DNA from: Leisingera sp. ANG-M7
GTDB taxonomy: Bacteria; Pseudomonadota; Alphaproteobacteria; Rhodobacterales; Rhodobacteraceae
DNA: 64,000 nt
NCBI RefSeq assembly: GCF_000813965.1
Contig: NZ_JWLI01000001.1
Coordinates: forward strand, 558,001 to 622,000
Direction: 5' to 3'
Part shown: positions 49 through 61,367 of the stretch, piece by piece
Numbering within the stretch: position 1 is the first letter of the stretch
Layout: each line of letters starts with the position of its first letter
The notes under the pieces: model-generated
Seen by the model: the letters and a program-made list of their open reading frames with translations, nothing else
The model's database searches: none
What the model was told of the DNA's origin: nothing
Made by a program: the position numbers and the translations under genes

Positions 49-1113
49 TCAGGCCATGCCGCCGCCGATCAAGCCTTCGGCGATGCGGGCATATGCTTGG
101 GCCATCATCCCATCCCCCGCTGCAATAGGCGTGCCGCTGTCGCCGGCCAGCCGCGTCTCCAGGTCGATGGGCAAGGCGCCCAGGAGAGGCAGACCCAAAG
201 TCTCTGCCTCAGCCGCCACACCGCCGCGACCGAAGATGTGATGCTCGCCGCCGCAGTCAGGACAGGTGAAGAAGGACATATTCTCAATCAGCCCCAGCAC
301 CGGGGTTTTCAGGGTGCTGAACATATCCATCGCCTTGCGCGCATCCAACAGCGCCACGTCCTGCGGGGTGGAGACAACGATGGCACCGGTCAGCTCTGCC
401 TTGGTGCAGAGCGTCAGCTGCACGTCGCCGGTCCCTGGCGGCAGGTCGACGATCAGCACGTCCAGCTCACCCCAGTTCACCTGCCCCAGCATCTGCTGCA
501 GCGCGCCCATCAGCATCGGGCCGCGCCAGACCACCGCCTTACCCTCCTCCAGCATGAAACCGATCGACATCAGGGTGACACCATGGGCGTGCAGCGGTTC
601 GATGATCTTGCCGTCCGGGCTGGCAGGCCGTCCCTTGGCGCCCATCATCCGGGGCTGGGAGGGACCGTAGATATCTGCATCCAGCAACCCGACCTTGCGG
701 CCCTGTTTGGCCAGCGCCACGGCAAGGTTCGAGGACACGGTGGACTTCCCCACCCCGCCCTTGCCGGAGGCAATCGCCAGGATACGCTTCACCCCTGCAG
801 GCTTCAGCGGCTCCGCCTGCGGTTTCGGGTGGCCGCCGACCTTGAGGCTGGGGGCGGGCTGCTGGGGGGCATGGGCGGTCAGTGCGGCGGAGACGGTTTC
901 AACGCCTTCCAGCGACTGCACCGCGGCCTCGGCGGCCTTGCGCAGCGGCTCCATCAGTTTGGCGATCTCGGGGCTTGGCGCCTCGATTACAAAGCTCACC
1001 TTGCTGCCCTCAATCCGCAAGGCCCGCAGCATGTCGCGCGACACCAGGGTGCCGCCGTCCGGCAGCGCCAGCCGCTCCAGCACCGCGTGAATCTGTTCCT
1101 GTGTGACACCCAT
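49..1113 (-). CDS. apbC: Mrp/ApbC (NBP35-type) Fe-S cluster carrier ATPase
   Basis: This 354-residue protein is a P-loop ATPase that binds and delivers iron-sulfur clusters to apoproteins in the cytoplasm. It has an N-terminal MIP18/DUF59-like domain (about residues 1-85), a Pro/Ala linker, and the NBP35 ATPase domain with the deviant Walker A GKGGVGKST near residue 118. Further downstream are DADIYGPSQP and the cluster-binding CxxC in FTCPDCGG near residue 285. The ATG is preceded by AGGAGAG at good spacing. It stands alone on the minus strand, divergent from the DUF1127 gene. The length matches full-length alphaproteobacterial Mrp. Confidence 0.95.
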   Translation of the reverse strand: MGVTQEQIHAVLERLALPDGGTLVSRDMLRALRIEGSKVSFVIEAPSPEIAKLMEPLRKAAEAAVQSLEGVETVSAALTAHAPQQPAPSLKVGGHPKPQAEPLKPAGVKRILAIASGKGGVGKSTVSSNLAVALAKQGRKVGLLDADIYGPSQPRMMGAKGRPASPDGKIIEPLHAHGVTLMSIGFMLEEGKAVVWRGPMLMGALQQMLGQVNWGELDVLIVDLPPGTGDVQLTLCTKAELTGAIVVSTPQDVALLDARKAMDMFSTLKTPVLGLIENMSFFTCPDCGGEHHIFGRGGVAAEAETLGLPLLGALPIDLETRLAGDSGTPIAAGDGMMAQAYARIAEGLIGGGMA

Positions 1114-1456
1114 GGCTGCTCTCCTGCGTCAATTCCGGCCCATATATATGTGTGTGCCCGCGCGCAGGGAACCCGGCCTGCGCCTTTGCCGCATCTGCAG
1201 GGAGGCGGATATGTCAATCCGCAGCCGCACAAGCCCTGCGCCGAGCGCGGGCGGATGCCCGAAAATTATACAGGCGCATAACGAACTGCTGAAAATCTCG
1301 TCCAATAACAAAGGTCTACCCTGCGTCACCCATGCACATGCCGCATAGCAGCAATGACGAAGCACGGGATTGTGCATCCGCAGCATATCCTTAAATTGTC
1401 ATTCAAGAAATGCCACAGCGGCACACGACGAGACGGTTAGACGAAGGAACAGAACG
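1114..1456. other. Intergenic region between divergent apbC and DUF1127 genes
   Basis: This 343-base gap holds no convincing gene. It should contain the promoters of apbC (minus) and of the DUF1127/cuckoo RNA transcript (plus). I could not assign convincing -35/-10 boxes. The stretch just before the DUF1127 gene is AT-richer than its surroundings. In Rhodobacter the homologous transcript depends on RpoH-type sigma factors, but no clear match to that promoter is visible here. Confidence 0.4.
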
Positions 1457-1666
1457 ATGGCAGCAGCACAACAGATCTCCGCGGTGAGCTTTGCATCCCC
1501 GCTTGGCTTCCTGGATGCCCTGCTGGTCAAGTTCGTCCGCTACCGCCTGTACCGCCAGACCGTCAATGAGCTGTCTGCGCTGACCGCCCGCGACCTGGCA
1601 GACCTGGGCCTGAACCGGTCTGAAATCAAGCGCGTCGCCTACCAGGCGGCTTACGAGAACAACTGA
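1457..1666 (+). CDS. DUF1127 small basic protein (CcaF1-like) heading the cuckoo RNA transcript
   Basis: This is a 69-residue protein of the DUF1127 family. The C-terminal half carries the family pattern: YRQTVNELSALTARDLADLGL, then a basic helix with RSEIKRVAY. The ATG at 1457 has an AAGGAA ribosome site, whereas the longer upstream reading has none, so this start was chosen. It lies immediately upstream of four CCTCCTCCC-loop hairpins. The same arrangement is known in Rhodobacter sphaeroides, where the DUF1127 protein CcaF1 is an RNA-binding protein co-transcribed with the CcsR sRNAs and involved in their maturation. By position and family this is the likely counterpart; RNA binding here is inferred. 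Confidence 0.9.
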   Translation: MAAAQQISAVSFASPLGFLDALLVKFVRYRLYRQTVNELSALTARDLADLGLNRSEIKRVAYQAAYENN

Positions 1667-1675
1667 ATAGAGATC

Positions 1676-1707
1676 AGGCTCCTTCTCCTCCTCCCTTAGA
1701 AGAGCCT
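1676..1707 (+). ncRNA. Cuckoo (CcsR-type) sRNA hairpin 1
   Basis: The arms AGGCTCCTTCT and AGAAGAGCCT pair with one bulged C, and the loop exposes CCTCCTCCC (1687-1695), which is anti-Shine-Dalgarno in character. It begins 9 bases after the DUF1127 stop codon, so it is probably processed from the DUF1127 mRNA. Family knowledge: CcsR/cuckoo RNAs are stress-induced sRNAs of Rhodobacterales defined by this loop motif. Confidence 0.82.
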
Positions 1708-1713
1708 GTCTTC

Positions 1714-1749
1714 TGCGGCGGCATCCTCCTCCTCCCTGATGCCGCCGCA
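1714..1749 (+). ncRNA. Cuckoo (CcsR-type) sRNA hairpin 2
   Basis: A perfect 11-base-pair stem (1714-1724 with 1739-1749) presents a loop containing CCTCCTCCTCCC. The stem sequence is unrelated to hairpin 1, while the loop motif is kept. A small CCGGC/GCCGG hairpin (1757-1771) lies between this element and the next. Confidence 0.85.
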
Positions 1750-1779
1750 CCCTATACCGGCCGAAAGCCGGGCTTGGAT

Positions 1780-1811
1780 CACCGGGTTCTCCTCCTCCCT
1801 GATACCCGGTG
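1780..1811 (+). ncRNA. Cuckoo (CcsR-type) sRNA hairpin 3
   Basis: An 8-base-pair stem CACCGGGT/ACCCGGTG (1780-1787 with 1804-1811) encloses a 16-base loop with CCTCCTCCC at 1791-1799. Third member of the array. Confidence 0.82.
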
Positions 1812-1819
1812 TTTGACAG

Positions 1820-1868
1820 AACGGCGGTGCCCCTCCTCCTCCCTGGGCGCCGCCGTTTCTTATTTTTG
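1820..1868 (+). ncRNA. Cuckoo (CcsR-type) sRNA hairpin 4, doubling as terminator
   Basis: A 13-base-pair GC-rich stem (1820-1832 with 1845-1857, one G-U pair) closes a loop containing CCTCCTCCTCCC. It is followed directly by TTCTTATTTTT, so this last hairpin should also act as the intrinsic terminator of the DUF1127-cuckoo transcript. Confidence 0.85.
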
Positions 1869-14129: not shown

Positions 14130-14229
14130 TCACCGGATGGCAGCGCGGGCGTAGCTCAGGGGTAGAGCATTACCTTGCCAAGGTAAGGGTCGTGAGTTCG
14201 AATCTCATCGCCCGCTCCATCGGGAAACG
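14130..14229. repeat. 100-base direct repeat, copy A (tRNA-Gly unit)
   Basis: Bases 14130-14229 are identical to 16960-17059. The repeat covers the tRNA-Gly gene plus 15 bases upstream (TCACCGGATGG...) and 10 downstream (T CGGGAAACG). A third unit at about 16741-16831 shares the tRNA and most of the leader but has GAATGG in place of GGATGG. The repeats bracket the restriction-modification genes. Confidence 0.9.
14145..14219 (+). tRNA. tRNA-Gly (anticodon GCC), copy 1
   Basis: A cloverleaf is visible: acceptor GCGGGCG/CGCCCGC, D-arm GCTC...GAGC, anticodon stem TTACC/GGTAA with loop TTGCCAA, TTCGAAT T-loop, and encoded CCA. An upstream TTGCAG and a downstream terminator suggest an independent transcription unit. 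This copy is separated from the other two by the methyltransferase/endonuclease/Vsr genes. Confidence 0.97.
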
Positions 14230-16755: not shown

Positions 16756-16830
16756 GCGGGCGTAGCTCAGGGGTAGAGCATTACCTTGCCAAGGTAAGGG
16801 TCGTGAGTTCGAATCTCATCGCCCGCTCCA
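16756..16830 (+). tRNA. tRNA-Gly (anticodon GCC), copy 2
   Basis: Identical over all 75 bases to copies 1 and 3. Upstream CTTGCGG and TAAACA resemble a promoter; the leader CACCGAATGG differs by one base from the other copies. Confidence 0.97.
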
Positions 16831-16959: not shown

Positions 16960-17059
16960 TCACCGGATGGCAGCGCGGGCGTAGCTCAGGGGTAGAGCAT
17001 TACCTTGCCAAGGTAAGGGTCGTGAGTTCGAATCTCATCGCCCGCTCCATCGGGAAACG
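16960..17059. repeat. 100-base direct repeat, copy B (tRNA-Gly unit)
   Basis: Identical to 14130-14229. It marks the right side of the tRNA-Gly duplication. Confidence 0.9.
16975..17049 (+). tRNA. tRNA-Gly (anticodon GCC), copy 3
   Basis: Identical over all 75 bases to copies 1 and 2, with CCA encoded. It has its own upstream CTTGCGG...TATTCA element and its own downstream hairpin. Confidence 0.97.
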
Positions 17060-40457: not shown

Positions 40458-40610
40458 TTTTATGGCCGCCAATCAAGCATCAAAGCTGCGCTGCAGCGAT
40501 TTGCCCCAATGTCGCGCCAATAAGGCCAATATGAAACTGATTTTAATACCAAAAAATAATCTACAAAGATTCCGGTTGACGCAAACCCCGTACCTCCCCT
40601 AGCCCTATAG

Positions 40611-40724
40611 GCACGCAGGGGAGTCCCGCCCAAGGGACTGAGAGGCGTCATGGTGCGGGGCATCCCGGACCGGCGGCGCGACCCTTTGAACCTGACCCAG
40701 TTGATACTGGCGTAGGAAGCAAGA
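40611..40724 (+). promoter_or_regulatory. TPP riboswitch (THI element) of the thiamine operon
   Basis: Conserved THI-box parts are visible in order: GGGGAGTCCC near 40618, GGGACTGAGAGG (the CTGAGA core at 40638-40643), GACCCTTTGAACCTGA (40680-40695) and GTTGATACTGGCGTAGGAAGC. It binds thiamine pyrophosphate and represses thiC expression when TPP is abundant. About 150 bases of leader separate it from thiC. A TTGACG (40576) upstream is a candidate -35 box without an obvious -10 partner. Confidence 0.95.
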
Positions 40725-43652
<2,928 letters not shown>

Positions 43653-61257: not shown

Positions 61258-61367
61258 GGCTCGTCTCCTTGATGACCCGGCAAAGGTATGTGGTTTCCCT
61301 CGATGCGATAATCCGGCTACATTGAAACCTCATGTTGAGAAAAATTCACCGCATCGGGAGGAGGCGT

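Follow-up and report, generated by a model that had tools for sequence, protein, structure and literature searches.

A two-unit ccaF1-CcsR-type locus in Leisingera with a putative LsrB/VtlR-type promoter box

Described systems

The closest described system is the CcaF1-CcsR1-4 (CIN1) locus of Rhodobacter sphaeroides, in which ccaF1 is reported to be cotranscribed with four CcsR RNAs (sources including PMC10253847). In the published accounts, RNase E and CcaF1 mature the Rhodobacter CcsR RNAs, these RNAs bind Hfq, and the flhR mRNA is a reported target. CcaF1 itself has been reported to bind RNA in Rhodobacter, and RNA binding by DUF1127 proteins has been disputed in Salmonella. RpoE, RpoHI, and RpoHII are reported to control CcsR and other stress sRNAs in Rhodobacter, and the Rhodobacter transcript RS0680a is described as two stem loops (PMC3927594).

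The cuckoo RNA family (including alpha-r14/NfeR1, RF02344) is described as adjacent hairpins with a constant CCUCCUCCC loop and variable stems. NfeR1 of Sinorhizobium is an alpha-r14 RNA with anti-Shine-Dalgarno (anti-SD) motifs reported in all of its loops (PMC7143759), and these identical loops are reported to act redundantly at translation starts. LsrB binds at -72 to -57 of the NfeR1 promoter and is described as indispensable for NfeR1, and its site there is given as TGCA-N6-GCAT within -72 to -60 (PMC10746234). The LsrB/VtlR circuit of Rhizobiales comprises LsrB or VtlR, the AbcR sRNAs, NfeR1, and DUF1127 genes, and VtlR/LsrB is reported to activate the DUF1127 genes and the AbcR sRNAs. 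A 15-bp VtlR motif has been published as CAATGCAGCCATGCA (PMC12595884). The PDB entry 9HH1 is LsrB of A. tumefaciens (PMC11975290), and the same 2025 report states, from a tree of selected species, that LsrB appears unique to Rhizobiales.

The Leisingera locus

We analyzed a window of 64,000 nt from the marine Leisingera sp. ANG-M7 (contig NZ_JWLI01000001.1, positions 558,001-622,000, forward strand). Coordinates without a contig label refer to this window, and the features of the locus are as follows.

49-1113, minus strand: Mrp/ApbC-type P-loop ATPase gene (Pfam), the divergent neighbour that marks the locus
1332-1356, plus strand: putative LysR-type (LsrB/VtlR-like) box, with TGCA-N6-GCAT at 1333-1346
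1370-1396, plus strand: predicted core promoter in a conserved block, TTGTGC at 1370-1375 (within TTGTGCATCCGCAGCAT) and TTAAAT at 1391-1396
1443-1449, plus strand: probable ribosome-binding site GAAGGAA, from the sequence
1457-1666 (stop included), plus strand: DUF1127 gene, ccaF1-like, 69 aa, PF06568 at E 7.2e-14
1675-1708, plus strand: hairpin 1, first hairpin of CcsR unit A, CCTCCTCCC in the loop, 5 both-sided pair changes
1715-1748, plus strand: hairpin 2, second hairpin of CcsR unit A, CCTCCTCCC in the loop, 4 both-sided pair changes, RF02791
1757-1771, plus strand: separator hairpin between the two units, without the motif, 97.7% of cells paired, 1 both-sided change
1780-1811, plus strand: hairpin 3, first hairpin of CcsR unit B, CCTCCTCCC in the loop, 3 both-sided changes, 87% of cells paired
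1820-1867, plus strand: hairpin 4 (1820-1857) with a U-rich tail, second hairpin of unit B, CCTCCTCCC in the loop

The 69-aa ORF matches PF06568 with 51.7 bits in the Pfam search (cut-off 23.3), and an NCBIfam search with the protein at 1e-5 returned no match. Its stop codon lies 8 nt before the first stem, on the same strand, and in the loci examined the array is always directly 3′ of the DUF1127 gene and on the strand of that gene. The Mrp-type gene is found in the DNA adjoining the array in 39/51 and 28/30 loci, and because it neighbours the array in most loci, orthology of the locus is supported. Open reading frames on the minus strand across the array were set aside as mechanical only. 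Elsewhere in the window, a trio of tRNA-Gly(GCC) genes, apparently identical in Rfam alignments, lies within 3 kb (14145-14219, 16756-16830, and 16975-17049), and a TPP riboswitch is found at 40607-40735 (61.5 bits, above cut-off).

The earlier note had likened this arrangement to the CcaF1-CcsR1-4 locus, and the comparison holds. As in R. sphaeroides, a DUF1127 gene is followed by same-strand CCUCCUCCC-loop hairpins in two-hairpin units, here with two matches to the CcsR1 model of Rfam (RF02791), a likeness judged through that model and published descriptions. CcaF1-CcsR1-4 has four CcsR RNAs, whereas the Leisingera locus has two units, with RF02791 scores under the cut-off. Judged from its sequence, the locus is of the ccaF1-CcsR (CIN1/cuckoo) type, a kind already known.

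Promoter and LsrB/VtlR-type box

The promoter, which the earlier note had left as a question, can now be described in part: its core is conserved and is accompanied by an LsrB/VtlR-type box, with transcription predicted to start at ~1403. Relative to that position, TGCA-N6-GCAT (1333-1346) lies at about -70 to -57. The upstream block shared among related loci consists of TATGCAnnTGCTGCATA/GGCAGCATTG and, after some nine bases, TTGTGCAnnnGCAGCA, together with an CCTATCTT-, CCTTAAATT- or CCCATGTT-like element. As for the sigma factor, the ccaF1-CcsR promoter probably depends specifically on RpoHI/RpoHII.

The exact TGCA-N6-GCAT box is present in 45 of 51 related upstream regions compared to 10 of 2040 shuffles, the TGCR-N6-GCAT form in 46/51 compared to 16/2040, and the box stands 37 nt from TTGYG in 42 of the 45 measurable loci. 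The five upstream regions (of 51) from which TGCR-N6-GCAT is absent are those of two Shimia and three Paracoccus (L086-L090). Among the 30 loci found via RF02791, 12 have the exact box, 24 have the TGCR form, and four have a degenerate box; two members of this set (L186 and L197) lack the -35 element used to seek the box, and the box of L186 is visible in a separate listing. What is new here, we infer, is a promoter box that links the ccaF1-CcsR array to an LsrB/VtlR-type regulator. No direct link between CcsR and LsrB/VtlR was found in the literature searched, and an earlier mention is possible.

A candidate regulator and its neighbouring sRNA

The candidate regulator is the LysR-type gene C55:337926-338828, whose protein has 9HH1 as its best PDB match at 245 bits (next 98). 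An LsrB-like protein from a genome of another family (G025), which matches 9HH1 at 341 bits and whose gene sits after an ORF labelled by eye as thioredoxin reductase-like, finds the Leisingera protein in a reciprocal search at 304 bits (next 139). From these PDB and reciprocal searches, it is clear at the level of sequence that the genome encodes one LsrB/VtlR orthologue. Matches to the Leisingera protein at E <= 1e-80 occur in 30 of 41 genomes. Unlike in the Rhizobiales circuit, trxB is not beside the regulator gene in this genome, and the sole cysteine of the regulator (position 190) does not align with the cysteines visible in 9HH1, so that the signal sensed by the regulator may differ.

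The 3′ side of the regulator gene carries the exact TGCA-N6-GCAT in 26/30 loci and CCTCCCTGT in 28/30. In the Leisingera genome, the stretch after this box matches SorX at 54.6 bits (cut-off 46.6) and SorY at 56.8 bits, the latter under its cut-off of 111. At this locus of regulator gene and sRNA (C55 ~337750-338828, L103/L138), the SorX-like sRNA has a CTTGAA/CCCTAAAT-like promoter, a CCTCCC motif, and a strong terminator, and most of the 30 loci keep box, promoter, and SorX/SorY-like sRNA behind the regulator gene. As in the Rhizobiales circuit, the LysR-type gene has an anti-SD-type sRNA as its neighbour and DUF1127 genes are preceded by a related box, while the Leisingera sRNA differs in fitting SorX/SorY better than suhB/AbcR-type models.

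Across the genome, the pattern TGC-N6-YGCATAGC has 13 occurrences (12 sites) compared to 1 for the reversed control. It stands upstream of 5/7 DUF1127 genes, inverted in two of them, and a binomial estimate for this grouping is ~7e-14. One site is directly 3′ of the candidate regulator gene, and six of the 12 sites lie away from the DUF1127 genes and the regulator, most of them within ORFs. The pattern exceeds its control in every one of 20 genus relatives, and such an excess was generally not seen in genomes outside the family.

A different LysR-type regulator (e.g. OxyR) or some other factor may occupy the promoter box in place of the LsrB orthologue, though in our judgment this is unlikely. 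T-N11-A is a generic LysR box, the genome encodes many LysR-type proteins (the G025 LsrB-like protein has 40 matches in it), and the VtlR 15-mer CAATGCAGCCATGCA fits the window poorly, with 11 of 15 positions matched, a score that 90/1020 shuffles reach. The same 15-mer is found at 13 or 14 of 15 in 28 of 51 related loci and in 0/1020 shuffles. What argues for the LsrB orthologue is that both the box and its position in the window equal those published for LsrB at NfeR1, itself a CCUCCUCCC-loop sRNA, that the box recurs directly behind the gene of the orthologue, and that LsrB/VtlR is reported to activate DUF1127 genes in Rhizobiales.

Other DUF1127 genes of the genome

The genome contains seven DUF1127 genes. 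Behind the second (C56:14006-14221; L006/L202, to ~14300) lies a single CCTCCTCCTCCC anti-SD hairpin before a terminator; across 21 genus genomes, a CCTCC motif follows this gene in 20/21 and a GCTATGC/GCATAGC box stands in front of it in 20/21. In the tandem pair C56:327471 and 327950 (L200, ~327400-328260), each gene is preceded by a LysR-type box and followed by a C/T-rich CCTCC loop and a terminator, and the CCTCC motif behind the second gene is kept in 3/3 relatives looked at. The remaining three DUF1127 genes have no CCTCC-type loop near their stop codons. For the VtlR 15-mer, the other DUF1127 paralogues score 9 to 11 of 15, no better than shuffles, and the link between paralogues and regulon therefore rests on the shorter TGC-N6-YGCATAGC pattern. 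Two genus relatives (G014 and G006; L039 and L040) carry an extra DUF1127 gene with no CcsR-type array right behind it, and by eye a further DUF1127-like frame may be present in the DNA that comes next.

On balance, we lean towards the view that LsrB/VtlR is not confined to Rhizobiales and that, in Rhodobacterales, its orthologue controls a regulon made up of DUF1127 proteins and anti-SD sRNAs. The proposed regulon would include the SorX-like sRNA behind the gene of the regulator itself, the ccaF1-CcsR array, and additional DUF1127 genes, some of them with a single anti-SD loop in the 3′ UTR. On this view, the CcsR array would be a fused form of a circuit of regulator, sRNA, and DUF1127 protein that Rhizobiales encode as separate genes, and this circuit would be older than the split between Rhodobacterales and Rhizobiales.

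Structure and conservation of the hairpin array

The earlier note had described hairpins with the same loop and unlike stems behind the DUF1127 gene, and all four are found, with CCTCCTCCC at 1687, 1728, 1791, and 1835 on the plus strand. The loop core, CTCCTCCTCCCT, is constant (the constant loops read CUCCUCCUCCCU), and the stem sequences are unlike among the four hairpins. Together with one unrelated copy at 61356 on the minus strand, the window has 5 copies of CCTCCTCCC compared to 0.84 expected, and 0/100 shuffles reach 5. Over the whole genome, the 12-mer CTCCTCCTCCCT occurs six times forward and 0 times in reverse (control 0 and 0). Four of these copies are the array and one belongs to the 3′ UTR of the second DUF1127 gene; the sixth, at C1:401381, was set aside, as it lies inside a 534-aa ORF. 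The loops were also said to expose an anti-SD-like core, which we judge to be right. In sequence, the CcsR loops are presumably similar to the anti-SD end of 16S rRNA.

The four stems pair 1675-1684 with 1699-1708 (one C-A mismatch in the window row), 1715-1725 with 1738-1748, 1780-1787 with 1804-1811, and 1820-1832 with 1845-1857. RNA spanning 1664-1870 folds into the four motif hairpins and the small separator hairpin at -95.4 kcal/mol (z -7.42), and 0/200 shuffles fold equally well. Covariation was assessed in an alignment of 26 sequences, comprising 21 genus genomes (including this one) and five other records. Standard pairs fill 96.5% of 1214 cells over five helices, and both-sided changes occur in 15 of 47 pairs compared to 6.0 in shuffles, with 0/500 shuffles reaching 15 and slid controls giving only 2 to 4 such pairs. 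Some rows (e.g. L025) are one column off in hairpin 3, and the partly misaligned L035 was kept, so that these counts are lowered. Pairing is kept while the stems change, as the earlier note had argued, and the comparison of stems across relatives that it proposed finds covariation, with both loop and pairing conserved.

In hairpin 4, 99.7% of cells are paired and 2 pairs have both-sided changes; with the U-rich tract, this hairpin is likely a terminator. The separator hairpin is conserved, with weak covariation. In 51 related loci, the median stem at the motif has 11 pairs, taken after dropping stems of fewer than 5 pairs, compared to a shuffled-flank mean of 5.2. The idea that hairpin 1 pairs with the ribosome site of its own gene was discarded, since by eye the part of hairpin 1 concerned varies among relatives. 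The array is a real observation: a well conserved structured RNA locus.

Two CcsR units and growth of the array

The RF02791 model has 83 positions and two hairpins. It matches the window twice, at 1665-1753 (39.6 bits, E 4.9e-8), covering hairpins 1 and 2, and at 1772-1861 (37.3 bits, E 2.4e-7), covering hairpins 3 and 4. Both scores are below the curated cut-off of 65.3 bits, and formal membership of RF02791 is not claimed. The cuckoo model RF02344 (alpha-r14/cuckoo), suggested earlier for this array, does match at 1665-1776 with 38.9 bits, but under its cut-off of 58.8. The alpha-r14 RNA is described with three hairpins, whereas the Leisingera array has 2 + 2 behind a DUF1127 gene.

Because RF02791 spans two hairpins and matches twice, the window holds two CcsR units and not four, and the earlier count of four CcsR RNAs was twice too high. 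A scheme of one CcsR per hairpin is rejected by the two-hairpin model, by RS0680a, and by genome G147 (L169), where four RF02791 matches cover eight loops with a spacing of 37/67/35/69/35/67/34. Since that genome has four matches and eight loops, the window can be read as a two-unit version of the CcsR1-4 array.

Loop spacing follows the same alternation elsewhere. In 39 of 51 loci, short steps (mostly 37-44 nt) alternate perfectly with long ones (mostly 60-73 nt), and in 12 the alternation is imperfect; by script, hairpin number is even in 45/51 arrays and odd in 6, with the script undercounting in places (4 for 8 in L062, 3 for 4 in L050 and L078). The two-hairpin pair is the usual unit of growth, that of most arrays. 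Very long arrays occur in Paracoccus (L087, L088, and L090; 12 to 14 motif copies) and in another family member (L168; 18 copies). At E <= 0.001, RF02791 finds a match in 243 of 295 genomes from the family, over the cut-off in 10/295, and in 1 of 14 control genomes (Thermus composti), under the cut-off.

Proposed mechanism and targets

We consider it probable, from the sequence comparisons above, that this is a two-unit ccaF1-CcsR locus under LsrB/VtlR-type control that yields two repressor sRNAs. Under stress, the LsrB/VtlR-type LysR regulator would act at the box, together with a core promoter of the kind assigned in Rhodobacter to alternative sigma factors, to give a single transcript. RNase E with the DUF1127 protein would cut the linkers to release two CcsR sRNAs, whose loops may pair with purine-rich GGGAGGAG-type ribosome sites and repress several mRNAs, by analogy with NfeR1. 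Extra units in other species may mainly raise the dose, which is a guess.

Candidate targets were collected with the filter GGGAGGAG-N3-9-ATG over the genome, giving 34 start-like sites (one of which is the array's own complement) compared to 4 in the reversed control. Thirty of the 34 sites were made into loci, of which 20 have an ORF of at least 85 aa; the Pfam scan covered 18 of these and omitted L132 and L137 as likely wrong frames. Transport components account for 6 of the 18 ORFs (TctC, DctP twice, DctQ, an Na:Ala symporter, and an ABC ATPase), which is a candidate list and not an enrichment.

A sponge, whose repeated loops would titrate away the DUF1127 protein or purine-rich RNAs with no repression at start sites, seems improbable to us. 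A transcript with many identical loops (as many as 14 in Paracoccus) would suit such a role, as would a co-encoded protein reported to bind RNA in Rhodobacter, but the flhR mRNA has been reported as a target of CcsR and the NfeR1 loops are reported to act on translation starts. Slightly less probable again is a role in cis only, where a structured 3′ UTR protects and terminates the DUF1127 mRNA and there are no trans-acting sRNAs. The terminator-like last hairpin is consistent with this, as is the constant place of the array directly 3′ of the gene on the same strand; however, a merely stable hairpin would need neither an identical loop in each copy nor a two-hairpin unit, and the Rhodobacter CcsR RNAs are reported to be processed and to act on other mRNAs. 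Chance C/T-rich repeats in GC-rich DNA, for which the GC-rich stems might speak, are rejected as having a negligible probability, since motif count, fold z-score, and covariation all contradict them when set against shuffles.

Implications

Taken alone, the array adds one further example to a known class of stress sRNA loci. If the reading of the promoter is true, CcsR and SorX, stress sRNAs of the Rhodobacter type, would be tied to the LsrB/VtlR circuit of rhizobia and related bacteria, and the 2025 statement that LsrB appears unique to Rhizobiales (PMC11975290) would be contradicted. The same reading would help to account for the joint occurrence of anti-SD sRNAs and DUF1127 genes.
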